Source: Campylobacterales bacterium (GTDB lineage: Bacteria > Campylobacterota > Campylobacteria > Campylobacterales > QNZT01). From it: DNA of 64,000 bases. Shown here piece by piece: positions 17,111 through 63,801 of this stretch. Position 1 is the first letter of the stretch. Every line of letters begins with the position of its first letter. The stretch lies in NCBI GenBank assembly GCA_027023405.1, contig JALVVN010000007.1, positions 125,676-189,675 on the forward strand, written 5' to 3'. The position numbers and the translations under genes are program-made. Under the pieces are notes generated by a model, which was not told the DNA's origin, did not search any database, and saw only the letters and a list, made by a program, of their open reading frames with translations.

Positions 17111-17587
17111 CTATTCGGTTAAACTTTTACAATACTCTTGCACTTTTGCATTAGCATCAGTGTGAGTACAATCAAAAACACCTCTACTGTAAGTAAAATT
17201 AATATCTGTCTTTAGTGCTCTAAAAGTGTAGGTATCAACGGCAACTTTACGCCAATTCCCATCACTAGTTTGAGAGTAGATCGGATAATCAAGCAACTTT
17301 TTACTCGGATCACTGTTATTGCTGTCATAATCGAAAAGCGGATCACCGTCATTTGATGTCGCGGTAGAGAGCGCATCCAAATGTATCGGATTGCCCCCTT
17401 TGCCCGTCATCATATTTTTGCTCCGAAGCAGTGAGATTGCCGATCGGATCGATGCGACTTGCGATCGCCCCTTGGTCAAGATCGCATCATCTCGCGTCAC
17501 TGCCATCTTTGAGACAGCGATCGAGGAGAGTATCCCCAATACAACGATCACCATTACCAACTCTATCATTGTGAATGCTTTTTTCAT
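17111..17587 (-). CDS. Type IV pilin-like / pseudopilin protein (third of tandem trio)
   Basis: The N-terminus MKKAFTMIELVMVIVVLGIL is a class III prepilin signal: a short basic leader, cleavage before F, Glu5 and a hydrophobic helix. The body (158 residues) has the TRDDA motif shared with its two neighbours and a C-terminal cysteine pair (FDCTHTDANAKVQEYC) that probably forms the D-region disulfide. It would be exported and assembled after cleavage by a prepilin peptidase not encoded here. It begins 11 bases after the neighbouring pilin-like gene, so the two form one transcript. Pilus or pseudopilus system unknown. Confidence 0.8.
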   Translation of the reverse strand: MKKAFTMIELVMVIVVLGILSSIAVSKMAVTRDDAILTKGRSQVASIRSAISLLRSKNMMTGKGGNPIHLDALSTATSNDGDPLFDYDSNNSDPSKKLLDYPIYSQTSDGNWRKVAVDTYTFRALKTDINFTYSRGVFDCTHTDANAKVQEYCKSLTE

Positions 17588-17598
17588 TCTGTGCTCCT

Positions 17599-18048
17599 CT
17601 ATTTTGTATAGATATGGCTTCCACCTATCTCATATTTTTTGATAGTATTATCAAGTTGCGAAATCAGTGCATCACAATAATCTGAACCATCACTATGTTT
17701 TGCAATTGTAATCGTCCCATTACTATCATCTACGCTTACCTTTAGACATATTTTTGTCCGTGCCGAATTTGCAATATAGGCAGGCGTAGTCAAAAAATTT
17801 CCAATATATGTTGCGCCTGAACTATCAACAAGATTTTCATGTGTCATTTTGCTTACATTTTTTTCAAATGCCCCATGTGCTGTATAGTATGATGAAAGCT
17901 CTGCGATGAGATTAGTAACACTTTTTTGTTTAATTACAATCTCTGCATCATCTCTAGTTGCTGAGAGTTTCGGAATCGCCACTAATGCTAAAATACCCAG
18001 GACAACAATCACAAAAACAAGTTCTATCATTGTAAATGCATTTTTCAT
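17599..18048 (-). CDS. Type IV pilin-like / pseudopilin protein (second of tandem trio)
   Basis: The prepilin signal is MKNAFTMIELVFVIVVLGIL, followed by ALVAIPKLSATRDDAEIVIK, nearly the same as in the first member. The 149-residue body has two cysteines (TKICLKVS and SDYCDAL) that could close a C-terminal loop, and the final residues (YEIGGSHIYTK) resemble the end of the first member (REYSFGGSSIY). These two are recent paralogues by eye; the third member (17111) is more diverged. A separate promoter is likely because a terminator-like hairpin lies upstream at 18123. Confidence 0.8.
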   Translation of the reverse strand: MKNAFTMIELVFVIVVLGILALVAIPKLSATRDDAEIVIKQKSVTNLIAELSSYYTAHGAFEKNVSKMTHENLVDSSGATYIGNFLTTPAYIANSARTKICLKVSVDDSNGTITIAKHSDGSDYCDALISQLDNTIKKYEIGGSHIYTK

Positions 18049-18122
18049 GATAACCCCAAAACTTCTTTACTATTTACTTTTAAATAGATATTATTACACT
18101 TAATAGCCATTTAAAAATAAAC

Positions 18123-18145
18123 CTGGAGCTAAATATTAACTCCAG
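18123..18145 (-). terminator. Hairpin terminator after the first pilin-like gene
   Basis: CTGGAG / CTCCAG pairs with three further A-T pairs after one mismatch. On the minus strand it is followed by GTTTATTTTTAAA, a U-rich tail. It lies 30 bases past the stop at 18175 and separates this gene from the next pilin-like gene. Confidence 0.6.
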
Positions 18146-18174
18146 ATTATATAATTATGCTTTTCAAAGACAAC

Positions 18175-18657
18175 TTAGTAGATAGAAGAACCACCAAAAG
18201 AGTACTCTCTCAACATTTTGTTTTGACTAAGTGCATTCGCTAAACCTTTGCAGTAAATACTCTTGTCAGCATCAGAATCTTTACTTATTGTCACAGTACC
18301 ATTAACATCATTGAATGTTACATCAAGACATTTAACCGCTCTTTTTTTATCAAAATAATAAGCTTTAGCAATTTTACCTTTAAGTGGTAAATTCTCCGCA
18401 GGTGTATTAGTCGTATCATCTGTATAGCTTGTATACAAAGAAACATTTGTCATTTTGGATACATTGTTATCCATATTCCCTCTTGATGTATAATACGAAC
18501 CAATATCCTGTACCAATGATGAAACTTCACTTGTTGCCTTTGCAATCTGCGCATCATCTCTTGTCGCCGCCAATTTTGGAATCGCTACCGATGCCAAAAT
18601 ACCTAAAATAACAATCACGAATACCAACTCGATCATAGTAAAACCACTTCTTTTCAT
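18175..18657 (-). CDS. Type IV pilin-like / pseudopilin protein (first of tandem trio)
   Basis: The prepilin signal is MKRSGFTMIELVFVIVILGI, with cleavage after G and Glu5 present. ASVAIPKLAATRDDAQIAKA follows. The body (160 residues) has two cysteines (RAVKCLDVT and KSIYCKGL) and ends in REYSFGGSSIY. The ATG has AAAGGAG at good spacing. It is divergent from ppk with a 209-base gap. A terminator follows, so it is its own transcription unit, which would let it be the abundant subunit. The system (type IV pilus, competence or secretion) is not shown by this locus. Confidence 0.8.
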   Translation of the reverse strand: MKRSGFTMIELVFVIVILGILASVAIPKLAATRDDAQIAKATSEVSSLVQDIGSYYTSRGNMDNNVSKMTNVSLYTSYTDDTTNTPAENLPLKGKIAKAYYFDKKRAVKCLDVTFNDVNGTVTISKDSDADKSIYCKGLANALSQNKMLREYSFGGSSIY

Positions 18658-26530: not shown

Positions 26531-27751
26531 TCACATATTAGCCATGTTCATGGAGAAGATGGGGAGGAGCATGGCAATAACGATGAAGCCGATGGTGGCA
26601 CCGACAAAGAGGATCAACATCGGTTCCATTAGTGAGAGAAAGACATTGATCTTATCTCGGTTTTCGCTAAAGTAGAGATCAGCAAGGTTCTCCATGACCA
26701 TTGGAACTTCACTAGTCTCCTCTCCTAGTGCAATCGCTTGAATAAAAGATTTATCGACATGTTTGCCGTGTTTAGCAAGTGATGAGGAGAACTTTTTGCC
26801 CTCGACCACATCTTTGCTAGCACTCTCAAACTCCTTTTTCATCACTTGGTTATCCAAGATACCGCTTGAGAGTTTCACCGCATGCACAAAGGTCACACCG
26901 CTTCGGGTCAAGACAGAGGTGATATAAGAGAAGCGCGCAAGCTCAAAAGTGCGGATAATCTTTCCAAAGAGAGGGAGTCGAAGCATCGTACTATCAAAGA
27001 GATAGCGAAATCTTGGGCTCTTTTTGAGAAAATAGCTAAAAAGAAGCGATCCGATTATAATCACAGCGACAATATGCAACCAATAGTGCCCCAAAAAATC
27101 ACCGGATGCAATGACAAATTTGGTAATTCCCGGTAACTCTTGCTTGAGCTGTGCAAACATTTTGGTGATCTTGGGCACAACAGTCGTGAGCATAAAAGCG
27201 ACCATAAAGATCGAGATGACGACGATCACCATCGGGTAAATAAGTGCCTGCTTCACCTGTCCGGAGACTTTATCCTGCTCCTCCACAAAACGCGCCATCT
27301 CAAAGAGTACCTCACTCATGCTCCCACTCTCTTCCGCTACCTTGATCGACTGCTTGTAAAAAGAGGGTAATGCAATAATATGTTGCGAATCGAGCGCGGC
27401 ATAAAAGCTATTTCCCTCATTCATACTACTCTCAAGCGAATTGAGAAAATCGACCATTATGCCATCATCTTCATATTGAGACTTCGCAAGCTTGATAACA
27501 TTGACAATCGGAATACCCGATCGCAAATAGATAGCAATATTTTTGGAGAATTGGGCGAGCTGTTTGGAGGTGAGTTTATGCGATCGTTTGAAACTCAAAC
27601 GACTGAGCAATCCTTCACCGCTCTCAGTAATACTATCAAAGAGAATCCCTTTGGCTTTGAGTTTGCGTTTGGCTTCATCTAAATCATTCGCTTCGATTCT
27701 CGCCTTGACCCGCTTACCGTGCGAATCATATCCACTATACTTAAAAATCAT
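26531..27751 (-). CDS. gspF: Type II secretion inner-membrane platform protein GspF
   Basis: The protein (406 residues) has two T2SSF domains (about 70-195 and 272-394), each ending in a membrane helix, e.g. VIVVISIFMVAFMLTTVVPK and MLILFVGATIGFIVIAMLLP. The N-terminal MIFKYSGYDSHGKRVKARIE is the usual GspF/PilC start. GspF is the polytopic platform that links the GspE motor to pseudopilus growth. A PilC role in type IV pili is an alternative, but its place last in the K-to-F operon supports GspF. It starts 1 base after gspE. Confidence 0.92.
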   Translation of the reverse strand: MIFKYSGYDSHGKRVKARIEANDLDEAKRKLKAKGILFDSITESGEGLLSRLSFKRSHKLTSKQLAQFSKNIAIYLRSGIPIVNVIKLAKSQYEDDGIMVDFLNSLESSMNEGNSFYAALDSQHIIALPSFYKQSIKVAEESGSMSEVLFEMARFVEEQDKVSGQVKQALIYPMVIVVISIFMVAFMLTTVVPKITKMFAQLKQELPGITKFVIASGDFLGHYWLHIVAVIIIGSLLFSYFLKKSPRFRYLFDSTMLRLPLFGKIIRTFELARFSYITSVLTRSGVTFVHAVKLSSGILDNQVMKKEFESASKDVVEGKKFSSSLAKHGKHVDKSFIQAIALGEETSEVPMVMENLADLYFSENRDKINVFLSLMEPMLILFVGATIGFIVIAMLLPIFSMNMANM

Positions 27752-27752
27752 A

Positions 27753-29276
27753 CTAATCTTTCAATCCTACGCGAATCACCTCTTTGAGCGAAGTTTCACC
27801 TTCAAGTAGGAGCTCAAGCAGTTTTTCGGAGATCGTACGCATCCCTTTTTGGCGCATCTTTTCACGAATCTCAAAGTCGGTCATTTGATTTTTGAGCATC
27901 ATCTTCACATCCTCATCCATCAAGAGCAGTTCACCCACAGCATGTCTGCCTTGATAACCGGTAAAGTTACACGCTTTACACCCCTTCTCTTTATAGATGA
28001 GATGATGTGGATCGATATGAAACTCTTCAGCAATCTCTTTTGGGAGGTGATCTTTTTCCTTGCACTCCGGACAAAGCTTTCGCACCAACCGTTGCGCCAA
28101 CACACCCAAAAGCGACGAAGTGATCAAAAAGTCATCAATTCCCATCTCAACCAAACGCGTAATTGCCGCAGCAGCGTTATTGGTATGGAGTGTCGAGAGC
28201 ATCAAGTGACCTGTGAGTGCGGCTTGAATCGCAATCTCCGCCGTCTCTTTGTCACGAATTTCACCCACCATCACGATATCAGGATCTTGCCGGAGGATTG
28301 AACGAAGTCCGGAGGAAAAAGTGAGCCCTGTTTTAGTATTGACTTGGATTTGGTTGATATTGTCCGCTTTATACTCGACCGGATCTTCGACAGTAATAAT
28401 ATTTTTATCCGGGGTCGCCACCAGTTGCAAAAAGGTGTGCAGTGTCGTTGACTTACCGCTTCCCGTAGGTCCCGTAACGAGGATCATCCCATGTGCGTGA
28501 TCGAGTAGCTTTTTAAAGTGACGCGTCAAATCCTCTTTGAATCCAAGATTCTCCAATGTCGGGATGTGGCTTGACTCCATCAAGATACGCATCACCACCC
28601 GCTCACCGTAATAGGTCGGTAAAACCGAAACCCGCACATCCAGCCCCTTACCGGCGATCTTCACCTGCGTTCTTCCATCTTGCGGAATCCGTTTTTCGGA
28701 GATGTCAAGATTGGAGATAACCTTGATACGGGAAACAACAAGCGCAATAATATTTTTATCGAGATCGACATGCTTGATCAATACACCGTCGATACGAAAG
28801 CGCACCACACCACGATGCTCATGCATCTCGATATGGATATCACTTGCACCCTTCTTGATCGCTTGATAGAAGAGTGAATTAACAAATTTAATAATCGGTG
28901 CTGACTCTTCACTCGTCAAAATATCGGAACTGGTTTGCAAAAACTCCGCAAGAGAGATATCCTCCTCCAAAAGCTCACTCTCACTCTCTTCATTAATCGT
29001 CGAGGAGAGTTCATTGTCGGTTTTGATCTCCAAAAATCGATGATAGAGCCTCTCATACGACTCTTTGTCCAGCATCGCAATCGGAAAATCGACATCGATC
29101 TTACTGAGATAGTTGAAGCTATCACTCAAATGCTCTTTATCTATGATAGTATAGATTTGATCATCGATTTTGGTAAAGAGAAGTGAATTTTTGACCGCCA
29201 GATCGAGATCAACACCCTCCACTATTTCGGGGAAGAGATCGAGATCAAAAAATTCAGGAATATTACTTAACTGCAT
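27753..29276 (-). CDS. gspE: Type II secretion ATPase GspE
   Basis: The 507-residue protein has an N-terminal GspE_N region, then the ATPase: Walker A MILVTGPTGSGKSTTLHTFL, Asp box ITVEDPVEYKADNINQIQV, Walker B DPDIVMVGEIRDKETAEIA and His box TGHLMLSTLHTNNA. A four-cysteine zinc motif (CPEC...CKAC) is near 410-445, as in GspE and PilB. It is a cytoplasmic hexameric motor for pseudopilin addition and removal. It lies between gspD and gspF with no gaps. Confidence 0.94.
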   Translation of the reverse strand: MQLSNIPEFFDLDLFPEIVEGVDLDLAVKNSLLFTKIDDQIYTIIDKEHLSDSFNYLSKIDVDFPIAMLDKESYERLYHRFLEIKTDNELSSTINEESESELLEEDISLAEFLQTSSDILTSEESAPIIKFVNSLFYQAIKKGASDIHIEMHEHRGVVRFRIDGVLIKHVDLDKNIIALVVSRIKVISNLDISEKRIPQDGRTQVKIAGKGLDVRVSVLPTYYGERVVMRILMESSHIPTLENLGFKEDLTRHFKKLLDHAHGMILVTGPTGSGKSTTLHTFLQLVATPDKNIITVEDPVEYKADNINQIQVNTKTGLTFSSGLRSILRQDPDIVMVGEIRDKETAEIAIQAALTGHLMLSTLHTNNAAAAITRLVEMGIDDFLITSSLLGVLAQRLVRKLCPECKEKDHLPKEIAEEFHIDPHHLIYKEKGCKACNFTGYQGRHAVGELLLMDEDVKMMLKNQMTDFEIREKMRQKGMRTISEKLLELLLEGETSLKEVIRVGLKD

Positions 29277-31430
29277 CTATTCCGCACCCTCATCAATCGC
29301 TTCACGAAATACCTCTTTGCCTGAAGCATCATAGTAAACCGCAGTTTTATTACCGTAATCATCGATCAAAATCTCTTTGGTCAAACCGGTTGTATCCAAG
29401 TGTGTATGCTCATCTAAGATCATCGACTCTTGTGCCGCCGCTTGTTGTGTATCAACCACTTCTCCCACTACCTCTTGCGGATCTTTCCCCTCTTTGAGTG
29501 TACGATTGAACCGCTTTGCCAAATCATACTCCAAACTTGAGAGTTGAGAGAGTGAATCTTTGAGCGTCGCTAAATCCTCACTTCGTTTGACAATATATGG
29601 CGTAATCATAATCACAAGATTTTTACGATCATAAGACTTGCTTCGATCTCGAAAAGGAATACCCAAAATAGGAATATCACCTAAAAATGGTATCTTACTT
29701 GTACTCTCATCACTCTTATCTTTGCTAAGTCCTCCTATGATCACCGTCTCACCGTTCATCACGATCGAGCTTGTCTTAACCTCTCGTTTCGTAGTTGTCG
29801 GTTGTGCGGTGTTCTGCTTATCATTTTTCTCCACATCTTCACTTTTTACCGTCACATCCAAAGAGACTTTATTATCTGCGGAGATGCGAGGCTTGACTTT
29901 GAGCGTGAGACCAATATCTTCTCGTGAATAGTTGTTGATCGGTACTGCTGTGACGGAGCTTGCCTGTGATGTCTGGGTCAAGATTGACTCTGTTTGCCCA
30001 ACATAGATTGAAGACTCTTTGTTATTGATACAAAGAATCGAAGGCTCAGAGAGTATCTTTGTCGCACCGTTGATATCAAGCAGGTCAACGGTAATACCTG
30101 TCGCCAACGCCTTTTTAAAGGTGGGTAATTTTAAGTTTGCAAGTGTTTTGACCGTCGTAAGCGGACTCAAACTTCCACCTAGCAGTTTCATTCCCACACC
30201 ATAGAGACCGCTATTACTCGAAATACCTGCCAATACTTCATATTTCGCTCCAAGCGCTTTCGCTTTCTTCTCACTGATCTCTAAAATCTTTGCCACTACA
30301 TAGACCTGCTGTCTCTCGACATCAAGTGATTGAATGACATTACGAATCTCTTTGAGTTCACTCTCTGTCGCATAGACGATCACCGCATTAAGCTCAGCAT
30401 CAACCGTAACAGTCGGCTTATCTTTATCACCGGTAATCGAAGGCTTGATGCGTTCAGTTTTGATAATAGGTGGTAGTCGTTTCCCTCTCACTCCTCTTTG
30501 AGGTATATGTGTCGTAACAATCTTCTCCTTCTCTTCAACTTTAGGCTTGGCAAAAGATTTGTCCGCAAGCAACTTTTCCAAAGTTTTGACAATCTCTGTC
30601 GCATCGGCATTTTTGATGTAGATGATCTCCATCTTTTTATCGACTGTCTCATCCGCCTTATCCATCTTTTTGATAAAGGGCATCACCCTTGCGATATTAT
30701 TACTATTCCCGACAAGCACGATTGAGTTACTTGCATCATCTGAAAAAACCGTCACCCGTTGCGTCTGAATACGGTTATCAAACATGGCGTTGACAAGTTG
30801 TCTTGCTTTGGGATAGACGCTTTTTGCCTGGGCATTTTGTAGTGTGATAAACGAGACACGATTATCTCGATCTTTATCAAGATGGCGGATAATGTTTTTG
30901 ATCGTTTTGATATTTTCAGGATAATCTGTCACGACAATAGAGTTGTTTTCATTTGAGAGTGAAATCTTCCCATAACGAGAAAGGAGAAAATTCACTTGTC
31001 TCAAAATGGTTCTCACATTGAGATTTTCAATTGGAATAATCGCCGTCTCTACTTCACCGATTTGGCTCTGTCCATACATTGGTGGCGCCGATTTGGAAGC
31101 GTCACTACTTTTGATCACCTTCAAAAAGCCGTTACCGGTATCTCGAAGCGTATACCCCTTAGAAACTAAAATATTTTTCAAAAGCGAAAAGACTTGTGAC
31201 TTTTTAATAGGCTTGACTGAAATATAGTCAACCGTACCGGTCACCTTTTTGGAGATCAAGATATTTTTCCCTGTAATCTTCGCAACCATCTTGATAAAGT
31301 CGGTAATTTTCAAATCTTTGAAGTTAATATTGACTTCATCCCGATTGGTCTCTCTAAATTTCGTCTGAGCATTGAGTGTTCCATACAGTGTCGAAACCAA
31401 TGCCAGTGACAATACAATTTTTCTCATCAT
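29277..31430 (-). CDS. gspD: Type II secretion outer-membrane secretin GspD
   Basis: A signal peptide (VLSLALVSTLYGTLNA) is followed by the N0 domain (VNINFKDLKITDFIKMVAKI), three N domains with the typical IYIKNADATEIVKTLEKLL pattern and a basic linker in the third, and the secretin domain from about 400. The secretin signature is VIIGGLSKDKSDESTSKIPF then LGDIPILGIPFR. Length 717 is normal. It forms the outer-membrane gate of the system. A C-terminal tail of about 100 residues, rich in D and E, could serve for pilotin or export contacts. Confidence 0.95.
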   Translation of the reverse strand: MMRKIVLSLALVSTLYGTLNAQTKFRETNRDEVNINFKDLKITDFIKMVAKITGKNILISKKVTGTVDYISVKPIKKSQVFSLLKNILVSKGYTLRDTGNGFLKVIKSSDASKSAPPMYGQSQIGEVETAIIPIENLNVRTILRQVNFLLSRYGKISLSNENNSIVVTDYPENIKTIKNIIRHLDKDRDNRVSFITLQNAQAKSVYPKARQLVNAMFDNRIQTQRVTVFSDDASNSIVLVGNSNNIARVMPFIKKMDKADETVDKKMEIIYIKNADATEIVKTLEKLLADKSFAKPKVEEKEKIVTTHIPQRGVRGKRLPPIIKTERIKPSITGDKDKPTVTVDAELNAVIVYATESELKEIRNVIQSLDVERQQVYVVAKILEISEKKAKALGAKYEVLAGISSNSGLYGVGMKLLGGSLSPLTTVKTLANLKLPTFKKALATGITVDLLDINGATKILSEPSILCINNKESSIYVGQTESILTQTSQASSVTAVPINNYSREDIGLTLKVKPRISADNKVSLDVTVKSEDVEKNDKQNTAQPTTTKREVKTSSIVMNGETVIIGGLSKDKSDESTSKIPFLGDIPILGIPFRDRSKSYDRKNLVIMITPYIVKRSEDLATLKDSLSQLSSLEYDLAKRFNRTLKEGKDPQEVVGEVVDTQQAAAQESMILDEHTHLDTTGLTKEILIDDYGNKTAVYYDASGKEVFREAIDEGAE

Positions 31431-31436
31431 AACCCC

Positions 31437-32255
31437 CTAATTTACACTAAAATCCAACTCTTTCTCTTGACCATTTCGAAGTACCGTCAAAGATAAAGAC
31501 TCTAAATTATCTGCATTATTATAATATTTCATCACATCTCCAAGCGAGTGAATCTCATTACCGTCAATCGCTTTGATCACATCACCTGAACGAAGCCCTG
31601 CTTTATCAAAAAAACTCCCTCTCTTGACATAATTGACTCGAAACCCCACCAATTCACCCTCTCGTCGCATCTCCTGAATACGAATATTATTCCAAATTTT
31701 ATCCGGGTTTCTCAGGTAACTCTTCATCTCCTCATGTGTTAACGAAACCGGTGTATCCTCATCCTCCTGCGAAGATGCACCACCACCGGAAAAAGATGAT
31801 TGATGCTGACGCTGTCGCTTCTCCTCCTCTCCATCGAGAAGGACATAATAATTTTTACCGTTTTTCTCAAAAACTACCTTTCTTTCCCCCACACGATTGA
31901 GTTCATAACCGCGGAATTTCTCACCGATATAGATAAATTTGCTCTCACCTCCATCCTCAATGATGATAAAGCTGGCATCACCACCGAGATAGGTACCTTT
32001 GAGCTTGATATCTTCAAGTTTTTGACCATCATCCTCTGTTGGTTTCTCTTGCGGAATCTCTACTTTGTTACCGATGATTTTATTGGCAAGATAGAGCGAA
32101 TAGTGGTAATTATATTGCGTGCTATGTTTCGCCCTCATCGGTGGTGCTTTTTGCAAAAAAATCTCTGAAACACTCCAAAGAAGCTTTGCCACAATCAAAG
32201 GCAAAGCGATAAAGAGAAGAAAAAAACGAAGCTTTTTGCTAAAAGTGTGATTCAT
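31437..32255 (-). CDS. gspC: GspC-like inner-membrane clamp protein with PDZ domain
   Basis: A short cytoplasmic start and one membrane helix (FFLLFIALPLIVAKLLWSVS) precede a homology region (LKGTYLGGDASFIIIEDG, KVVFEKNGKNYYVLL) and a C-terminal PDZ domain (about 190-270; RSGDVIKAIDGNEIHSLGDV). This is the plan of GspC, which contacts the secretin and binds substrates. A Ser/Gly/Asp-rich linker lies between the regions. It overlaps the GspN-like gene by 17 bases and precedes gspD by 6. Confidence 0.88.
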   Translation of the reverse strand: MNHTFSKKLRFFLLFIALPLIVAKLLWSVSEIFLQKAPPMRAKHSTQYNYHYSLYLANKIIGNKVEIPQEKPTEDDGQKLEDIKLKGTYLGGDASFIIIEDGGESKFIYIGEKFRGYELNRVGERKVVFEKNGKNYYVLLDGEEEKRQRQHQSSFSGGGASSQEDEDTPVSLTHEEMKSYLRNPDKIWNNIRIQEMRREGELVGFRVNYVKRGSFFDKAGLRSGDVIKAIDGNEIHSLGDVMKYYNNADNLESLSLTVLRNGQEKELDFSVN

Positions 32256-32754
32256 AGAGATAGCCCTCCTTCGTTTTTCTAAAGTTCTCTCTGAGAATTT
32301 GATTGTGCCGAAAAGATTTACTTGGGTGCAGTATCAAATGCACCTTCCGATCCTGAAGATCAATCTCCCCCTCAAGCGTTCCAAAGGCACCCTCACCTTC
32401 AATCTTTGCAACATTATAGTGCAAGATAGAGTGTGTGATATGCAACGCTTTTGCACTGGTCTTGACCATATCCGCTACCGATGTACTAGGCTTCACCCCT
32501 GTCAAATCAATGCGATTATAGAAGATCCACGGTTTGATTGATGCGTGTTCAATCTTCAAAGAGTCGATCCCGTCGTAACCGATATGCACCTCTTTAAGCA
32601 CTAGATCAACCCATCGATCTTGACTCTCTTTGGCATGGATTTGAATATGCTCCTTTTGGAGTAAAGATTCCAGAGTATAGAGTAAATTGAGCTTGGGCAT
32701 AAAGAGGACTAAACCGATGAAAAAAAGTACACATGCTAACAACAATTTTTTCAT
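32239..32754 (-). CDS. GspN-like type II secretion accessory protein
   Basis: The 171-residue protein has one N-terminal membrane helix (LLLACVLFFIGLVLFMPKL) and a short beta-rich periplasmic domain (VDLVLKEVHIGYDGIDSLKI, then IEGEGAFGTLEGEIDLQD). The plan and its place between gspM and gspC fit GspN, an accessory protein of uncertain role. Sequence likeness is weak, so position carries most of the call. It overlaps both neighbours, so it is translated with them. Confidence 0.65.
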   Translation of the reverse strand: MKKLLLACVLFFIGLVLFMPKLNLLYTLESLLQKEHIQIHAKESQDRWVDLVLKEVHIGYDGIDSLKIEHASIKPWIFYNRIDLTGVKPSTSVADMVKTSAKALHITHSILHYNVAKIEGEGAFGTLEGEIDLQDRKVHLILHPSKSFRHNQILRENFRKTKEGYLYESHF

Positions 32755-33143
32755 TTGGCAATCTCCACCCGCAAATTGACTCCGGCATCTGAAACCCTAG
32801 TAATCTCAAGGTTTTTAATCTGGAGCGAAGAGTTCTCGATCTTCCGTAGCAATCGTGAAAGGGTTGATGCCGAAAGATTCTCATAGACAAAAATTTCCGC
32901 ATTGGCTTTAGGGATACGATTTTGAACCGGTGCAATGCGACTCAAGGTTTCCATCGTTCGTTTGCTTGCATGCTTATCAAAGCGTTGTTTCAACTGCTTG
33001 AGTGCTTTGGCTTGGGTCTCAAACGCACTCAAGGCTTGCGCCGAGGCAAGATAGTCAGCTTTAGCTCGTTGTGCCATTGTATAGCTGATTCCCAACACTA
33101 CCACTGCCAATAGTGCCACCAAGATCAATGTCCGTTTACTCAT
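32751..33143 (-). CDS. GspM-like type II secretion protein
   Basis: A single membrane helix (LILVALLAVVVLGISYTM) is followed by a coiled-coil stretch (about 33-65) and a small ferredoxin-like domain (STLSRLLRKIENSSLQIKNL), which is the plan of GspM. GspM pairs with GspL in the inner-membrane platform. It has 130 residues and overlaps gspL by 4 bases and the GspN-like gene by 4. Confidence 0.75.
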   Translation of the reverse strand: MSKRTLILVALLAVVVLGISYTMAQRAKADYLASAQALSAFETQAKALKQLKQRFDKHASKRTMETLSRIAPVQNRIPKANAEIFVYENLSASTLSRLLRKIENSSLQIKNLEITRVSDAGVNLRVEIAK

Positions 33144-34081
33144 AGTGCAATCCTTGCAGAGAGGATATTCTCCTGCATCTGTGTACTTAGCACTTTACCA
33201 ATACGCTTCAGCGCTTGCGTCATGCTGTTTTGACGAGTTGGATCTGCTAAATGTAACTTCACCGCCATCTCCTTCTCTCCTAACTCAATCGACTCAAAAT
33301 AATCACCCTCTCTGAGATTGATTTTTGAAAGAGCATAAAGCGCTTTTCTAAGCTTCTTCTGCTTTGCAAACTTTTTCCCCAAAGATTTTTGAATACTGCG
33401 TATTTGAATCATCGTAGGAGGTAATTTGTTCTCTTTGATGATCTCACTGCGCTTCTGATCTAAATCATTTTGTGCCTTTTTATAGATGAAATACTCTCCC
33501 AAAAACGCAACCAATAAAAGCGCTACCAACACAGAAGCCAATATAATATCACGCTTCGGAAGTATCTCATCCCCACCAGGGGAGAGTCGAATCTTATGCC
33601 GTCCAAGTACGGCATCTTTGAGATGTTCCGCAATTTTCGAATCGGAGTTCACACAACTACGAGGTACCTGAATAATAATATCATCAATATTCATCAGTGC
33701 CGCTTTTTCGTTGATCGTCGTACACTCTTTGATACCTCCCAAAGCATCTTGCGCAAAGTAGATCTCTTTGATCTTGCTTTTGGCAGGGAAAATTTTCTCA
33801 AGCTCCTTCTGAATCTGCTCTTTATTGTACGCCATCACGATAAACTCGCCATCTCCCGCACGCCTGATCTCATAGCTATAACGCCCCTCAGGTAAATTCC
33901 CTTCAAAAACAGAGGGAGCCAAGTTTCTTGCTTTGGCAAGGCTCTTGACAGGTAGCTTCACCTTCTTGACCCAATAGAACTCTGGAGCCAAAATAACGGT
34001 AAAATCACCGTTTCGTATAAATTTATCTTTTTTGGTAATAAAGAGTGCTTCTCGTTTTTGTCTACCAAACGCGTTTCTCAA
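33140..34081 (-). CDS. GspL-like type II secretion inner-membrane protein
   Basis: The protein has an actin-like cytoplasmic half (LFITKKDKFIRNGDFTVILA, then EQIQKELEKIFPAKSKIKEI), one membrane helix at about 195-215 (VLVALLLVAFLGEYFIY) and a periplasmic coiled coil with a small C-terminal domain. This fits GspL, which holds GspE to the membrane. The cytoplasmic part is shorter than in classical GspL. The track start (TTG at 34117) lacks a ribosome site and overlaps gspK by 56 bases. A TTG at 34081 has AAGAGGA upstream and a 20-base overlap, so I prefer it; 34108 (ATG) is also possible. Confidence 0.75.
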   Translation of the reverse strand: MRNAFGRQKREALFITKKDKFIRNGDFTVILAPEFYWVKKVKLPVKSLAKARNLAPSVFEGNLPEGRYSYEIRRAGDGEFIVMAYNKEQIQKELEKIFPAKSKIKEIYFAQDALGGIKECTTINEKAALMNIDDIIIQVPRSCVNSDSKIAEHLKDAVLGRHKIRLSPGGDEILPKRDIILASVLVALLLVAFLGEYFIYKKAQNDLDQKRSEIIKENKLPPTMIQIRSIQKSLGKKFAKQKKLRKALYALSKINLREGDYFESIELGEKEMAVKLHLADPTRQNSMTQALKRIGKVLSTQMQENILSARIAL

Positions 34082-34994
34082 TGTTGCTAATCCTCTTGGT
34101 GTTGACATCGTAGTCAAAAGAGATCTCCTCTCTTGAATCCGTGCGGTTTAAAATAACAGTACATCTTACTAAATATTTGCTTTTAGAACTATATTGTGAA
34201 ATATTATATATTTTTTTTAATTTACCCATAGCTTCTGAATTGGCTTCTTGGCAGAGGTCCACTCCCTCTCCCAACTGCATCTCATCCTCAACAATTAGTG
34301 GCATTGTCACTATCGCATGTTCAGATGAACAATCAAACATTCCATACACCTTGGGATCACCGAAGTAGAAATATTTATCAAACTCTTCTTGGGTAATTTT
34401 ATAGATGTTGCTATCACTATTTTGACGATAATAATAATCTTCCATCTTTTTTATCTCATCAAAATCATAGAGCCTTCCCTGTCGGATGTTGATGCTCTCC
34501 TTTGCCATTTCACTTTCACCGCTCCTCTCTAATAGATCAGGATCCATTGTATCCAGTAGTATGGCTTCAAAAAGATAGGGATCGCTCAAATCAAAACGGC
34601 GTAAAAATTTTTCGATCGCACGATTGTAAAGTGTCGCTGCCTCCATCTTACTACTATTGGTTTCACTCTCCACAATAGTTTGCAACATCGCATTGAGATT
34701 GAGACGATCCATGAGTGAATGCACACGAAACCCCGGCATTAAACCGCTTTTTGAATCAACTATGGGGGAATCAAAAGAGAAGCTCAAAAATGCTTGAAGC
34801 TTTTCACTGCTGTTAATATCAAATTTTTGCACCATCTTGGAAAAGTCGGCAAAAAGGAGATTAAATTGATTTTGGTTATGCAGATCTTCTACACGATCAA
34901 AACGCTCCTTGGTAATCGAAAGAGACCAGAGTATCAATGCTGTGATCACAGCGATAAATCCCAAGGTTATCAGTAAAACAATCCCTTTTTTCAT
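34062..34994 (-). CDS. gspK: GspK-like minor pseudopilin
   Basis: The leader MKKG then IVLLITLGFIAVITALILWS is a prepilin signal without Glu5, which is the hallmark of GspK, the tip subunit of the pseudopilus. The body is long for a pseudopilin (310 residues), with the helical insert region (about 100-190) and two late cysteines (MFDCSSEH, VDLCQEA) plus another in VRCTVIL. It is first in the K-L-M-N-C-D-E-F operon and divergent from gspG with an 79-base gap. Confidence 0.85.
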   Translation of the reverse strand: MKKGIVLLITLGFIAVITALILWSLSITKERFDRVEDLHNQNQFNLLFADFSKMVQKFDINSSEKLQAFLSFSFDSPIVDSKSGLMPGFRVHSLMDRLNLNAMLQTIVESETNSSKMEAATLYNRAIEKFLRRFDLSDPYLFEAILLDTMDPDLLERSGESEMAKESINIRQGRLYDFDEIKKMEDYYYRQNSDSNIYKITQEEFDKYFYFGDPKVYGMFDCSSEHAIVTMPLIVEDEMQLGEGVDLCQEANSEAMGKLKKIYNISQYSSKSKYLVRCTVILNRTDSREEISFDYDVNTKRISNIEKRVW

Positions 34995-35073
34995 GTAGAA
35001 CCTACTTTCATTAATTTTATATAAAGCTAAATAAAGTAAAATATTTTATTAAATTAAGACTTAAAGGATAGCT

Positions 35074-35493
35074 ATGAGAAAAGCGTTTTCATTGATTGAG
35101 ATTATGATTGTTATCATTATCATCGGATTGTTAGCAGGTTTGGTACTTCCAAACCTCTTAGGGCAGGGAGAACAAGCAAAACGAAAGATTGTCTGTATTC
35201 AGATGAAGAGTATCAAAGATGCTCTCAAGAGCTTCAAGATGCAAAACGGTACTTATCCAACAACCGAAGAGGGCATCGCCGCATTGGTAACAAATCCTGA
35301 TCCTGAAAAATATAAGAGCTTTCCGGATGGTGGCTTTTTAGACGGCAAAAAACCACTTGATCCGTGGAGCAATCCCTATATCTACACCAACGACGACGGT
35401 AAAATTGAAATTATTTCACTCGGTGCCGATGGTAAAGAGGGTGGTAGCAAGGAGAATGCAGATATCTCGATGAGCCAGTGTGAAGCGCATTAA
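35074..35493 (+). CDS. gspG: Major pseudopilin GspG
   Basis: The prepilin signal is MRKAFSLIEIMIVIIIIGLL with Glu5. The rest is classic GspG: LVLPNLLGQGEQAKRKIVCI, QNGTYPTTEEGIAALVTNP, DPWSNPYIYTNDDGKIEIIS and the Ca2+-loop LGADGKEGGSKENADIS. It builds the shaft of the pseudopilus. Length is 139 residues. AAAGGATAG precedes the ATG. It is transcribed away from the rest of the secretion genes and ends convergent with the RND permease. Confidence 0.95.
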   Translation: MRKAFSLIEIMIVIIIIGLLAGLVLPNLLGQGEQAKRKIVCIQMKSIKDALKSFKMQNGTYPTTEEGIAALVTNPDPEKYKSFPDGGFLDGKKPLDPWSNPYIYTNDDGKIEIISLGADGKEGGSKENADISMSQCEAH

Positions 35494-58635: not shown

Positions 58636-58935
58636 TTACTTCAATGTTGCGATATAGTCTGCAACAGCTTTCATATCTGCATCACTAAGATTCGCAACTT
58701 GACCTTTCATCAATGCACCCATACCATGTTGATTAAGAGTACCTGCTTTATAGCCTTGAAGCAGTTTAATAGTTTTTGCAGCATCTTGCCCTGCAATGAC
58801 ATTAGATTTATTCAACGCTTTCTTTTTACCATCTTGTCCATGACAACCGGCACACTTTGCGAAGATCGCTTTACCATCCGCACTCACCAATGAAAACGCA
58901 CCCGCTACCATCAATCCTAATACTACTTTTTTCAT
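58636..58935 (-). CDS. Class I c-type cytochrome (c553 type)
   Basis: A signal peptide (VVLGLMVAGAFSLVSA) precedes a small one-heme domain with KCAGCHGQDGKKKALN and the axial Met in HGMGALMKGQ. The length of 99 and plan match the soluble periplasmic c553 carriers of Campylobacterota that feed terminal oxidases. GGAGAAAAAG precedes the ATG. A hairpin follows the stop. Confidence 0.9.
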   Translation of the reverse strand: MKKVVLGLMVAGAFSLVSADGKAIFAKCAGCHGQDGKKKALNKSNVIAGQDAAKTIKLLQGYKAGTLNQHGMGALMKGQVANLSDADMKAVADYIATLK

Positions 58936-58964
58936 ATCTTTTTCTCCTTTAATGAAAGTGGACT

Positions 58965-59273
58965 CTAGCTACCGCAACTAGGAAACAGTCCTGAATCTTT
59001 TGCATATTCGTACAAAAAATCGAAGATATCCGGTAACTCTTTTGCACTAATCTCTTTTAGATTTGGCTCTAATTTTAGCAACTCTGCTTTGAGTTTTTTC
59101 TGATCTTTGAGCATTTTCCACTCTTTTTGGCTATGTTTTGCAGCCAAATCAGCGATCGAAATCGTACAACCGCTTTTGAGCTTCTTCTCTAAGATCTCTT
59201 GTCCGACATTGGGACTCGCCCAAAGAGAGAGTGTCAAAAAAAGAGTCAAACTTAAAACAACTTTGTGCATCAA
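58965..59273 (-). CDS. Periplasmic protein of a heme-less cytochrome-like Campylobacterota family
   Basis: The 102-residue protein has a signal peptide (LSLTLFLTLSLWA) and two cysteines (KSGCTISIADLAAKHSQKEW and LFPSCGS) but no CxxCH. The pattern KKLKSGC..., HSQKEW and FDFLYEYAKDSGLFPSC fits a small family often annotated cytochrome c in this phylum, although no heme site is seen. The conserved His and Cys may bind another cofactor or a disulfide. It precedes the c553-type gene by 29 bases, so the two are probably one transcript. Confidence 0.65.
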   Translation of the reverse strand: MMHKVVLSLTLFLTLSLWASPNVGQEILEKKLKSGCTISIADLAAKHSQKEWKMLKDQKKLKAELLKLEPNLKEISAKELPDIFDFLYEYAKDSGLFPSCGS

Positions 59274-59351
59274 TAGCTCCTTTATATCTTGACAGAAGTA
59301 TAATCGGCATTTGTGGAAAAATTGTGAATATTAATTTAATAAACTAATGAA

Positions 59352-59720
59352 TTATTTTAATTTTCCAAAAACTGTATAGCGTTTCCAATAATAATCGATC
59401 GCTTTTTCAAGCTCTTGATCAGTCAGCGATGTCGGTTTTTTCACCCCAAAACGACGGATATACTCTTTAGGCATGACTGAAGTATCTTTATTCGGTGCTT
59501 TCAAATAATCGATAAGTGCCAATTTTACAGCCTTTTCACTACTATATTTCAATAGATAATCAAAATAAACCTGTTTTAAGTTAAAAGAGAGTTTTTGATG
59601 GCATTGTAAGCAATTTTGATGATATATCAACGCTGCTTGACTCTGAGTATGCAGATTCTCTTTTGCGTTTAAGCTCCCTAAACATTGTACTAAGAGCAAA
59701 AATATGCTTACTCGCCCCAT
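59352..59720 (-). CDS. Small periplasmic protein with one heme c motif
   Basis: A signal peptide (FLLLVQCLGSLNA) precedes a 100-residue domain with one CLQCH heme site (about 37-41) and a Met at MPKEYIRRFGV that could be the axial ligand. The domain is not a clear class I cytochrome. It overlaps the histidine kinase gene by 13 bases, so it is translated with the two-component pair, which is an unusual partner. Confidence 0.7.
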   Translation of the reverse strand: MGRVSIFLLLVQCLGSLNAKENLHTQSQAALIYHQNCLQCHQKLSFNLKQVYFDYLLKYSSEKAVKLALIDYLKAPNKDTSVMPKEYIRRFGVKKPTSLTDQELEKAIDYYWKRYTVFGKLK

Positions 59721-60901
59721 GTTACCCTCACTTTTGTTCCTTCACCAACCTTAGAATCCACATCAATTTTCAAATGGTATTCTTGCACAATCTCCCAAAC
59801 AATATTCAGTCCAAGACCAAATCCACCGGCATTTTGATTAAAACGACTGTAACGCATAAAAATATTTTTCACCTCCTCTTTACGCATACCTATTCCACTA
59901 TCCGCTATCTCAAAATATCCATCTTCCAAACGAATGACAATTTTTCCGTCGCGTTTATTATATTTTATTGCATTGGAGAGTAGATTATCTACAATACGAC
60001 TAATTTTATTCTTATCAATCACCAAAAAAACACCCTCTTTTAGATGGAGTGTACACTTAACCTGTTTTTGCCGGGCAATTAATTTAAAAAAATCTACGCG
60101 TTCTCGTATGAGATCTGCCATATCGATAGATTCATTATGTGAAGGAGTACGGTGTTTGAGTACCATATATGTCAAGTCGTTATAGATATTTGAGATCGTT
60201 CGTGCCGCAATATCGATGCGGTTGATCTTTTTTTGTGAGCGAGGATCCAATGTTTCTGTCGATAGTGTTTCAATGTTCATTAATATTGCATTGATAGGGG
60301 TATTGAGTTCATGCGTCGTATCCTTGATGAAGCGATCCAACAGGTAAAGAGAGTCTCTCATGGGCTTCAAAAGGAGCTTCAATAACACATATCCTCCTAA
60401 TAATAGTACCAAAAAGAGTAAAAGTCCATAGACAATAACTTTGGTTCGCACAAAATTGAACCAACCGCTATTATCATGAATCTCAATCACAAGATACATC
60501 GCACCTAAATAGTAACGCTCCAAAAGACGGACATAATGAATCTTATCTCCAACTACATAAATATTTTTATTTAAATCCACACTAGAGTTTTCTAAAGTAG
60601 AAAAAATGCATTTGTTACTTCCGTCATAGATAGCAGATTGATAGCTTGAACTACGAGGATAACGCATGCCGGCATGAAAGTTTTCATGCATATAGGCTAG
60701 CTTGGAGAGTAGTTTATCCGAGTACTCTTTGAGTCGGCTATTTTGCTGTGAGAGCATCACCTCTTTTTGGAGATTGTAGTAGATAAAAGCACTAAAGAGA
60801 AGAATAATAAGTGCCATCAATGAATAGAGTAACAGGAAAGAAAGAAGGGTCTTTCTTTCACTTTGTTGTAAACTTATAGCCCTGTTTTTTGATGCTGACA
60901 A
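59708..60901 (-). CDS. Sensor histidine kinase
   Basis: The 397-residue protein has two membrane helices (about 19-43 and 155-175), with a periplasmic sensing domain of about 110 residues between them. The kinase core is complete: H box KDTTHELNTPINAILMNIE, N box VDNLLSNAIKYNKRDGK, G1 EIADSGIGMRKEE and G2 GGFGLGLNIVWEI. The start is TTG with GGGGAAAG upstream, overlapping the response regulator by 44 bases. The signal is not known; the cotranslated heme protein might report redox state. Confidence 0.92.
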   Translation of the reverse strand: MSASKNRAISLQQSERKTLLSFLLLYSLMALIILLFSAFIYYNLQKEVMLSQQNSRLKEYSDKLLSKLAYMHENFHAGMRYPRSSSYQSAIYDGSNKCIFSTLENSSVDLNKNIYVVGDKIHYVRLLERYYLGAMYLVIEIHDNSGWFNFVRTKVIVYGLLLFLVLLLGGYVLLKLLLKPMRDSLYLLDRFIKDTTHELNTPINAILMNIETLSTETLDPRSQKKINRIDIAARTISNIYNDLTYMVLKHRTPSHNESIDMADLIRERVDFFKLIARQKQVKCTLHLKEGVFLVIDKNKISRIVDNLLSNAIKYNKRDGKIVIRLEDGYFEIADSGIGMRKEEVKNIFMRYSRFNQNAGGFGLGLNIVWEIVQEYHLKIDVDSKVGEGTKVRVTWGE

Positions 60902-61535
60902 TGCGTTCTTTCCCCAGTAATTTTCGTAAATTTTTAATATAGGTCCTTAGGCTCGCCTCTGAATAGGTCTCATCAAAATCCCACACTCTATCGTAAATCC
61001 GCTCATGTGAAAGAATTTCATCTTGATGTTTCAAAAAGAACTTAAGCAATCGAGACTCTTTTTTATTTAAGATCTGCTCTTTACCATTGATAAAAAGTAC
61101 ATTTTGCGCAATATCATAGTAGATATGCTCATCAATCTCAACCCGTTCAGAATTATTGGTATGGAAATAGTCTCGTTTTAAAAGATTCTCCATTCTCACA
61201 ATCAACTCTTTGAGTGCAAACGGTTTACGGATATAGTCATCCCCACCGCTCAAATAACCCTTTTCAAGATCATCTACCGAGTTGAGAGAGGTGATAAATA
61301 TAGCAGGTGTTTGCACCTCGCGATCTCGAAGCTCTTTGAGAAGCTCAAAGCCATTCATCGACGGCACATTGACATCTAGCAATAAGATATCAAAACACTG
61401 CTCATAAACAAGATCGAGTGCACTCTCGCCATCTTCCACCACCTCTACTTCATAACCCAACTCTTCAAGATGTTCACTAATCGTCTCATTAAGCGTAATG
61501 TCATCTTCCAGAAGCAATACCCGTTTTTTCAACAT
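60858..61535 (-). CDS. OmpR/PhoB-type response regulator
   Basis: The receiver domain has the acidic pair in LLLEDDITLN, the phospho-acceptor Asp in DILLLDVNVPSMNGFELL and the Lys in YIRKPFALKELIVRME. The winged-helix DNA-binding domain (about 130-225) is complete: RLLKFFLKHQDEILSHERIY, then TYIKNLRKLLGKERIVSIKK. It is paired with the overlapping kinase gene. Targets are unknown; the divergent pseudopilin operon 121 bases away is a candidate. Confidence 0.93.
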   Translation of the reverse strand: MLKKRVLLLEDDITLNETISEHLEELGYEVEVVEDGESALDLVYEQCFDILLLDVNVPSMNGFELLKELRDREVQTPAIFITSLNSVDDLEKGYLSGGDDYIRKPFALKELIVRMENLLKRDYFHTNNSERVEIDEHIYYDIAQNVLFINGKEQILNKKESRLLKFFLKHQDEILSHERIYDRVWDFDETYSEASLRTYIKNLRKLLGKERIVSIKKQGYKFTTK

Positions 61536-61609
61536 GATACATCCTCATTTGATTAAGGCATTCTAAAAAGCCCTAAATAAGATCATAGCATAAATTATAA
61601 TAGATTTGT

Positions 61610-61615
61610 TATAAT
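61610..61615 (+). promoter_or_regulatory. Tandem -10 elements before the pseudopilin trio
   Basis: Two TATAAT boxes, at 61596-61601 and 61610-61615, lie 41 to 60 bases before the TTG start of the first pseudopilin gene, in the gap with the divergent response regulator. Confidence 0.45.
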
Positions 61616-61655
61616 GAATCAACTATCACAAATATTTTAAATTAGGGCATAGATA

Positions 61656-62207
61656 TTGACACGCAAAGCATTCACACTTTTTGAACTCATTATTGTCGTC
61701 ATTTTAATTGGGATTATCTATGCGGTTGTATTAACCAATTTTCAAGTCAAACGAGATGTTAAAATTATGCACCTAAAAAATATTCGAAGTTCATTGATGC
61801 CATTTTGGAAAAGGGGCAAACGCGTTGATCTTGTGATCTATGATCATTGCAAAAAAGCGGTAATCTTACTAAATCATGAACCCCAAAAAGCGTATCATCC
61901 CAAAATCAATCTCAAAGAGTTTCAACATTTAAAACGCTTTGAGATAAATGCCGATAATGAGCTCAAAGAGATAGCTTGGACTCCCTATCGAATCGACGAT
62001 AAGCTCTATCCCGTCTGCTTTTCTTATACGATCTTTAAAAACGGAAGTAACTCCAGCTATATTCTGCAAACAGAAGATGAAACTTATGCAGTCGTCTATC
62101 CCTATTTTCAGGATATAAATATCACCGAAGATGAAGAGGAAGCAAAAAAACTCTATCTACACGAAGATGAGAAAGGAGCTATTATTGATACATTGCAAAC
62201 AGAGTAG
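61656..62207 (+). CDS. GspH-like minor pseudopilin
   Basis: The N-terminus MTRKAFTLFELIIVVILIGI is a prepilin signal (cleavage A|F, Glu5 present). The 183-residue body has a beta-rich region and one Cys in YDHCKK and one in YPVCFS. First in a run of three pseudopilins in the order expected of H, I and J. The start is TTG with a weak AGGGC upstream. The H assignment is from order and the single hydrophobic helix, not from a clear domain match. Confidence 0.72.
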   Translation: MTRKAFTLFELIIVVILIGIIYAVVLTNFQVKRDVKIMHLKNIRSSLMPFWKRGKRVDLVIYDHCKKAVILLNHEPQKAYHPKINLKEFQHLKRFEINADNELKEIAWTPYRIDDKLYPVCFSYTIFKNGSNSSYILQTEDETYAVVYPYFQDINITEDEEEAKKLYLHEDEKGAIIDTLQTE

Positions 62208-62670
62208 TGGTTTTACACTGATTGAAGTTTTGGTATCTGTCGCTATTTTAGCGGTAGTTGCTACCGCTTTGTTAGATATCAACTCCAACAGCAAGCAAAA
62301 CTTCTCCTATCTAAAGCAGAGAATTGATTTTGAAACGCGTTCATCGCTAGCATTCATGCACAGTGATCCAAAACTACACAACAAAGATCTTGAACTATAT
62401 GATTTTGTAAAAGAGAGCTATCCTACACTGAGCGAAACATTGCACAAAGAGCTTAAAGAGTATAAAATACACTATGAACATGAAGAAGCATTTTCAACTA
62501 TCTCGCCCAATGATCAAAATAAAAGTTCCCAAGATACGCTTGATGAGAATAACCCCTCATTGTCAGAAAATATATCACTTATTTTTGACAAAATTACACT
62601 ATCTCATCAAAAAAATAGTAGTACACTCTTTGAGATCACCATTCCATTTTCCAAAGGATACAACCAATGA
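62185..62670 (+). CDS. GspI-like minor pseudopilin
   Basis: The track start (62131) puts about 27 residues before the prepilin motif. The TTG at 62185 has AAAGGAG 7 bases upstream and gives a normal leader, MIHCKQSSG, then FTLIEVLVSVAILAVVATAL. I use that start. The 161-residue body is typical of small minor pseudopilins of the I type. It overlaps its neighbours on both sides (23 and 4 bases). Confidence 0.75.
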   Translation: MIHCKQSSGFTLIEVLVSVAILAVVATALLDINSNSKQNFSYLKQRIDFETRSSLAFMHSDPKLHNKDLELYDFVKESYPTLSETLHKELKEYKIHYEHEEAFSTISPNDQNKSSQDTLDENNPSLSENISLIFDKITLSHQKNSSTLFEITIPFSKGYNQ

Positions 62671-63248
62671 AAAGAGGATTTAGCCTTGTAGAGCTTATTA
62701 TCTCAATTTTTCTTTTGGGAATTATTGTGACATTTTTGTACTCATCACTTTCAGCTCTGGAACAGAGCAATAAGATACTCTCCACAGCAGAACAAAAACT
62801 GCAAATAAAAGATAAATTACTCAACATCCTTTATGATGATATCTTTTTAAGCGACTCACTTACCCTTAAAACAGGAGAATTTACAACAGCATCACTTCAA
62901 ACAAAAAACAGTATCTATCAAATCAACATGCCTTATGTCACATGGCTTGTTACACAACCAAAGCATGATCTGATGCGTATCGAATCTATCTATCCTATTG
63001 GGAAAATGAAACCACAAAACGAGCACTATTTTCATATCTCAAAAGTAGCGGATCATGTGGAGCATTTTGAAATTTATCAATCAAAAAAGAGGGACAAAGT
63101 ACTACTTTACCTAAAAAGAGCGGAACAACCGACACTTATTTATGAACTACCTAAACCGCTTAGTGTCAAAAAGAAGAAAATTCAAAAAAAATCACACAAG
63201 AAAGAAAAAGAATCAAACCCAATACATCCACAAATTAGAGTTAGATAA
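62667..63248 (+). CDS. GspJ-like minor pseudopilin
   Basis: The prepilin signal is MKRG then FSLVELIISIFLLGIIVTFL with Glu5. The start ATGA overlaps the previous stop. The body has 193 residues with a coiled-coil-like neck (SNKILSTAEQKLQIKDKLLN) and a very basic tail (KKKKIQKKSHKKEKE), which is odd for an exported subunit. It is the last of the trio, the place J holds in H-I-J-K runs. Confidence 0.72.
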   Translation: MKRGFSLVELIISIFLLGIIVTFLYSSLSALEQSNKILSTAEQKLQIKDKLLNILYDDIFLSDSLTLKTGEFTTASLQTKNSIYQINMPYVTWLVTQPKHDLMRIESIYPIGKMKPQNEHYFHISKVADHVEHFEIYQSKKRDKVLLYLKRAEQPTLIYELPKPLSVKKKKIQKKSHKKEKESNPIHPQIRVR

Positions 63249-63252
63249 ACAG

Positions 63253-63708
63253 CTACTCATTGCTGCTATCTAGCTCTTTATTGTGTGTGATACTCGGCGC
63301 AAATACTCGTTTAATTGCACCTTTGAGTCCTGACTCACGCTCCTCATACTCTTTCTCAGCTTCTTGCAGAGAAAGTTCCCATCCTTGTGCAAAACCCGGT
63401 GCTTTCGTATTCATCTTACGAATCGCTAAATCATAAATGTTTAATAATCTAATTTCATTTCGACCCGGTTTTTGACTTAATGTTTTAACTGAAATACGAA
63501 GATTCTCATTCTCACTTTTCAGCTTCTCATTCTCTTGCTCAAGCTGTTTCGTACCATCTTGCGTGAGCTTCATCTGTCTTTGTAGATGATCTTTATACTC
63601 CTTAAGCTCCTTTTTCAAAGCCGCTGTTGTAAAAAAACTTTTAATACCATATAAAATGATACCTACTACAACACCTAGTACTAAAGAGACCAAATCAATA
63701 TTTTCCAT
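63253..63708 (-). CDS. Membrane-anchored coiled-coil protein, unknown
   Basis: The protein has one N-terminal helix (LVSLVLGVVVGIILYGIKSF) followed by a heptad-rich coiled coil (about 30-80, KKELKEYKDHLQRQMKLTQD) and a short acidic-basic tail. The track begins at 63732; AAAGGAG precedes the ATG at 63708, so I use that start (MENIDLVSL, 151 residues). It looks like a small scaffold protein. It lies between the pseudopilins (convergent) and tRNA-Arg (same strand). Confidence 0.72.
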   Translation of the reverse strand: MENIDLVSLVLGVVVGIILYGIKSFFTTAALKKELKEYKDHLQRQMKLTQDGTKQLEQENEKLKSENENLRISVKTLSQKPGRNEIRLLNIYDLAIRKMNTKAPGFAQGWELSLQEAEKEYEERESGLKGAIKRVFAPSITHNKELDSSNE

Positions 63709-63724
63709 ATTATAACTCCTTTGA

Positions 63725-63801
63725 TGGCGCACCCTACAGGAGTCGAACCTGTGACCTTCGGTACCGCAAACCGATGCTCTATCCAGCTGAGCTAAGGGCG
63801 C
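63725..63801 (-). tRNA. tRNA-Arg with anticodon GCG
   Basis: Read on the minus strand, the 77 bases form a full cloverleaf with encoded CCA: acceptor GCGCCCT / AGGGTGC, D stem GCTC/GAGC, anticodon stem TCGGT/ACCGA with loop TTGCGGT (anticodon GCG at 34-36), and T arm ACAGG-TTCGACT-CCTGT. It would decode CGC and CGU. A TATACAAT box lies just upstream, so it may have its own promoter as well as read-through from the rRNA operon. Confidence 0.92.

Follow-up and report, generated by a model that had tools for sequence, protein, structure and literature searches.

Three overlapping genes on the plus strand at positions 61656 to 63248 of the window (the whole 64,000-nucleotide stretch analyzed, which makes up the terminal part of contig C7 in a 2.03-Mb genome of 44 contigs) very probably, at roughly 93%, encode the minor pseudopilins H, I, and J of the type II secretion system (T2SS) predicted at 26531 to 35493. 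The trio is orthologous to genes within the T2SS operons of relatives, its third protein has a GspJ fold in a predicted model, and it co-occurs with the T2SS across genomes. The first-pass annotation had proposed that the trio is the missing H-I-J set of this distant system, and all three kinds of evidence support that proposal, H being its weakest part, as it is assigned by position only. Since relatives keep the trio with their T2SS genes, we regard this as an ordinary secretion system with split genes rather than a new system. The closest named relatives found for this genome were uncultured Campylobacterales and "Sulfurospirillum sp." assemblies.

Gene 1 (61656 to 62207), the minor pseudopilin gene in the gspH position, encodes 183 amino acids from a TTG start with the cleavage site K-A↓FTLFE; in an alignment of 23 members, the site K-A↓FTLFEL was kept across all relatives. 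Gene 2 (62167 to 62670), of the GspI type, lies in a reading frame open from 62131 (179 amino acids), for which the ATG at 62167 is the more likely start and still leaves a 41-base overlap with gene 1. Gene 3 (62667 to 63248; 193 amino acids), the GspJ candidate, overlaps gene 2 by 4 bases. The Pfam N_methyl family matched genes 2 (E = 2.5e-9) and 3 (E = 2.1e-6) above its cut-off and gene 1 below threshold (E = 0.0078); gene 1 did pass TIGR02532 (18.0 bits; cut-off, 16.3). Phe and Glu (Glu5 of the hydrophobic helix) are invariant in the family alignments of all three proteins, which share with T2SS H, I, and J a prepilin leader and a hydrophobic helix carrying Glu5. The three prepilin signals and overlapping genes reported earlier were thus borne out by the reading frames and by the Pfam and TIGR02532 matches.

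The T2SS locus lies mostly on the minus strand, with the platform protein gene gspF (26531 to 27751; TIGR02120, 304.6 bits, best family, below the cut-off of 424), the ATPase gene gspE (27753 to 29276; TIGR02533, 564.5 bits, best family, below the cut-off of 630), the secretin gene gspD (29277 to 31430; TIGR02517, 406 bits, over cut-off), and gspC (31437 to 32255; TIGR01713, 102.9 bits, over cut-off). These are followed on the same strand by genes recognizable mainly by position: N (32239 to 32754; weak GspN match, E = 0.036), M (32751 to 33143; weak T2SSM match, E = 0.037), L (33140 to 34117; position and conserved operon), and K (34062 to 34994; 310 amino acids, position and NF037980 at E = 0.075). 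The K-position protein has no Glu5, which GspK usually lacks, and no PDB sequence match was found for it. The major pseudopilin gene gspG (35074 to 35493; TIGR01710, 140.4 bits, over cut-off) is on the plus strand. As first described, the locus has C, D, E, F, G, K, L, M, and N, and no H, I, or J was present between 26531 and 35493, with E and F below their cut-offs and K to N mainly positional.

The decisive evidence for the trio as H-I-J is gene order within the Campylobacterales. Orthologues of gene 2 were sought in 59 genomes and found in 35, the window genome included; for many of them the gene context was read. Three genomes (G053, G032, and G047) have a single T2SS run, G-trio1-F-K-L-M-N-C-D-E-trio2-trio3; G057 has the core on one strand and then a divergent G-1-2-3, an arrangement repeated in G035; and G-1-2-3 forms a separate cluster in G025 and G044. 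Gene 1 directly follows gspG in all of these and in G038 and, outside the window's family, does so in every context in which the two could be seen. Genes 2 and 3 mostly adjoin each other. The trio is therefore encoded with T2SS genes, in H-I-J order after G, in relatives but not in the window genome.

For gene 2, we read "I" as the probable identity from its position plus a GspI match below threshold. TIGR01707 matched it at an E value of about 3e-8 to 4e-8 (33.6 to 33.9 bits; cut-off, 44.35), so that the curated score was not reached, yet GspI is its best family (3e-8, against 0.01 for PilV), and GspI was matched by 26 of 31 gene 2 orthologues. For gene 3, the curated GspJ profile TIGR01711 gave 13.8 bits against a cut-off of 64.85 and was weakly matched by 15 of 29 orthologues, the best at 2.1e-9 over profile positions 2 to 99. 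An AlphaFold model of gene 3 built with 29 family sequences (mean pLDDT, 88.6) was compared with 350,542 PDB chains, and ranks 1 to 7 were all GspJ/XcpW at a probability of 1.00 (XcpW in 5bw0, 3nje, and 6utu; chain J of 3ci0), so that the predicted globular fold is that of GspJ. The E values (0.004 to 0.03) are modest, and the argument is therefore the agreement of all seven matches; the next match was unrelated, at a probability of 0.69. As we know of no solved PilW for comparison, the structural match alone would also admit a PilW-like protein, an identity that is excluded by synteny and profiles: in hhalign, with single E. coli K-12 proteins as references, the gene 3 profile matched GspJ at 90.8% over 122 columns and the pilus-type PpdB at 24.5% over 31. 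For each of the three genes, profile searches of PDB sequences matched just the helix common to pilins and so do not discriminate among pilin types. The GspH, GspI, and GspJ profile searches that the first-pass annotation had called for thus delivered in part, naming GspI as the best family of gene 2 but leaving all three genes below the family cut-offs. A better match to the type IV pilus minor pilins FimU, PilV, and PilW, which would have spoken against the trio, was not seen, given the predicted GspJ fold of gene 3 and the GspI preference of gene 2.

The name "H" for gene 1 comes from its place immediately behind gspG rather than from its fold, because its predicted fold is without a PDB match. 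The AlphaFold model is confident (pLDDT, 89.2), and Foldseek against the PDB returned nothing at an E value of ≤0.001 and no pseudopilin among the 50 matches listed; the GspH globular fold was not recovered in this search. It is possible, if doubtful, that the GspI and GspJ identities hold for genes 2 and 3 but that in the Campylobacterales the H position was taken by a different, GspG-related pseudopilin with its own globular domain, gene 1, a refinement compatible with the main reading. The confident model has no match in the PDB, although GspH and GspG structures are deposited there; the gene 1 profile, compared with single E. coli K-12 proteins, is nearest GspG and closer to it than to GspH, a resemblance that lies in the shared N-terminal helix; and Cys65 and Cys121 are nearly invariant in the 23-member alignment. 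However, other families place gene 1 right after gspG, the canonical place of gspH, Foldseek performs poorly with pseudopilins that are small and divergent, and the TIGR01708 (GspH) match of gene 1 is about as good as its GspG match.

Distribution agrees with gene order. Of 34 genomes of other families with a completeness of at least 90%, 19 have both gene 3 and GspC, 13 have neither, 1 has only gene 3, and 1 has only GspC (P = 2e-7, uncorrected for kinship), so that the trio occurs with T2SS core genes across genomes. Gene 3 was found without GspC in G003, G012, and G049; the first two belong to the window's own family and carry gene 3 and Cts without detected GspC. The converse, GspC without gene 3, was found in G042 and four less complete genomes.

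The genome has two ATPase/platform pairs, that of the window T2SS and that of a machine on contig C44 (L021:4927-12760), which has PilM-like and PilO/P-like proteins, an MshL-type secretin, an ATPase, and a platform protein, with no pilin genes in the locus. From gene content, we take it to be a Campylobacter-type Cts competence machine; some relatives have two machines of this type. When the whole genome was searched for the N-methylation motif, the matches were the trio, gspG, three genes at window positions 17111 to 18657, two on contig C9, and one on C2. The pair on C9 (L019:8947-12594), followed by a PilX-like gene, belongs to a PilV/PilW/PilX-like set with a 499-amino-acid protein. We rejected this set as a rival H-I-J since its homologues go with Cts-type machines, which they adjoin in G056 and G057 (L131 and L130), and are present in genomes without a T2SS; it is a better candidate for the Cts machine than the trio. 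No better H-I-J candidate turned up elsewhere in the genome, and a second complete H-I-J set, raised earlier as grounds for abandoning the assignment, was not found. Minus-strand positions 17111 to 18657 hold three paralogous pilin-like genes (158, 149, and 160 amino acids) beside priA that are nearest GspG, ComGC, and PilA in their N-terminal parts and are possibly major pilins of the Cts machine.

It is very unlikely that the trio is instead a FimU/PilV/PilW-type minor-pilin set of the Cts machine on contig C44. The locus of that machine is devoid of pilin genes, and the trio gives mixed weak profile matches (ComGE and PilV), which arise because all prepilins share the N-terminal helix. The trio orthologues, however, sit in T2SS operons. 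Among the 34 genomes of other families, none of the 8 that have Cts and lack a T2SS carries gene 3; G027, where a T2SS is present and Cts was not detected, does carry it. The V/W/X-type set on C9 also fits the Cts role better. The T2SS and the Campylobacter-type Cts machine with its PilV/W/X-type minor pilins have homologous prepilin N termini and are both in the window genome, but Cts has a separate MshL-type secretin, ATPase, and platform and likely has its minor pilins on C9. Sharing of the trio by both machines is equally improbable: the single prepilin peptidase found by genome search must be shared, and in G023 (L123:3936-6500), an exception to the partition between machines, the gspJ orthologue directly follows a V/W/X set, but the distribution of gene 3 tracks GspC with a weak link to CtsM and each machine has its own candidate set.

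With the trio as H-I-J, the prepilins would be cleaved by the genome's single peptidase, proteins 2 and 3 (I and J) would pair and be capped by K of the T2SS, and protein 1 (H) would join I-J-K to the GspG shaft. The tip would then start a periplasmic pseudopilus that GspE and GspF drive towards the GspD channel. This follows the Pseudomonas tip, in which V and W (I and J) are the core, capped by X (K) and with U (H) at the base (PMC6211770). The trio resembles XcpU-V-W (PMC6211770) in the gene order and operon neighbors seen in relatives, in sizes, in prepilin signals, and in the predicted GspJ fold, and differs in that H-I-J lie apart from G, K, and the rest, that gene 1 has no detectable GspH fold, and that all three genes fall below family cut-offs. 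The E. coli K-12 gsp operon (gspC-O) has the same parts in contiguous form, with the usual order G-H-I-J-K and no two-component neighbor. In Legionella, the lsp genes occupy five chromosomal loci (PMC6617341); both systems are dispersed, but Legionella keeps G-H-I-J-K together, whereas here H-I-J leave and G and K stay with the core. As dispersed T2SS genes were already known from Legionella, the split is a modest addition, a further case with a different cut. With the trio, a T2SS of an uncultured campylobacterial lineage that would otherwise lack its tip has a full set of parts; annotating locus by locus would mislabel such split systems as incomplete, and synteny assigns two pilin sets of one genome to two related machines.

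Nine genomes of the window's family were read, including the most divergent genus (G007), and in all of them the trio lies at a distance from the core, next to one conserved pair of response regulator and histidine kinase genes. The earlier claim that the tip genes were split from the core, with K in one locus and H, I, and J in another, is upheld, as relatives keep them together. H-I-J lie about 26 kb from gspG, an interval filled by core genes (serA, rpsA, ispH, aroA, pheT, pheS, argH, and pckA); G004, which belongs to another genus, shows the same split, and its gene order matches that of the window over about 40 kb, starting at trpF and ending one gene past the trio. We therefore rejected an inserted island: the interval is core genome, in identical order in G004. 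Because other families keep these genes together, separation in the ancestor of the window's family is the simplest reading; as dispersal recurs elsewhere, the direction of change is something we infer. T2SS pseudopilin genes are dispersed variously in several families of the order (G031, G058, G034, and G051): in G031 (C88 and C201), J is found with the core, apart from G-H-I-F, and in G058, three separate places are occupied by I, J, and the core.

The response regulator gene (60858 to 61535, minus strand) is divergent from the trio, its partner histidine kinase gene lies at 59708 to 60901 (minus), and a gene for a membrane coiled-coil protein that is not part of the T2SS (63253 to 63732, minus) is convergent with the trio; the regulator and the coiled-coil gene are kept beside the trio in the family. 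Ahead of the trio is a conserved, putatively promoter-like element (61604 to 61620, plus strand; ATTTGTTATAATGAATC), whose TATAAT is kept in 9 of 9 aligned family genomes. A sigma-70 scan gave no -35/-10 pair at 61604 to 61620 on the plus strand, and in a search upstream of the trio for a response-regulator binding motif the TATAAT element alone stood out, shared 7-mers being at shuffle level. The element suggests that in the window's family H-I-J are probably transcribed from their own promoter, opposite the two-component system; control by that system is a guess. Rather improbable, in our estimate, is the wider idea that the gspH slot of Campylobacterales holds a non-GspH pseudopilin with its own globular domain and that the tip genes of the window's family are expressed apart under the divergent two-component system; in that case the machine could be switched on through the supply of its tip. 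Small c-type cytochrome genes (58636 to 59720, minus strand) adjoin the histidine kinase gene, one of them being repeated several times in G006 (L057), and in G007 (L106:12267-15400) gspK and gspG are separated by a response regulator/histidine kinase pair that is distantly paralogous to the one beside the trio.
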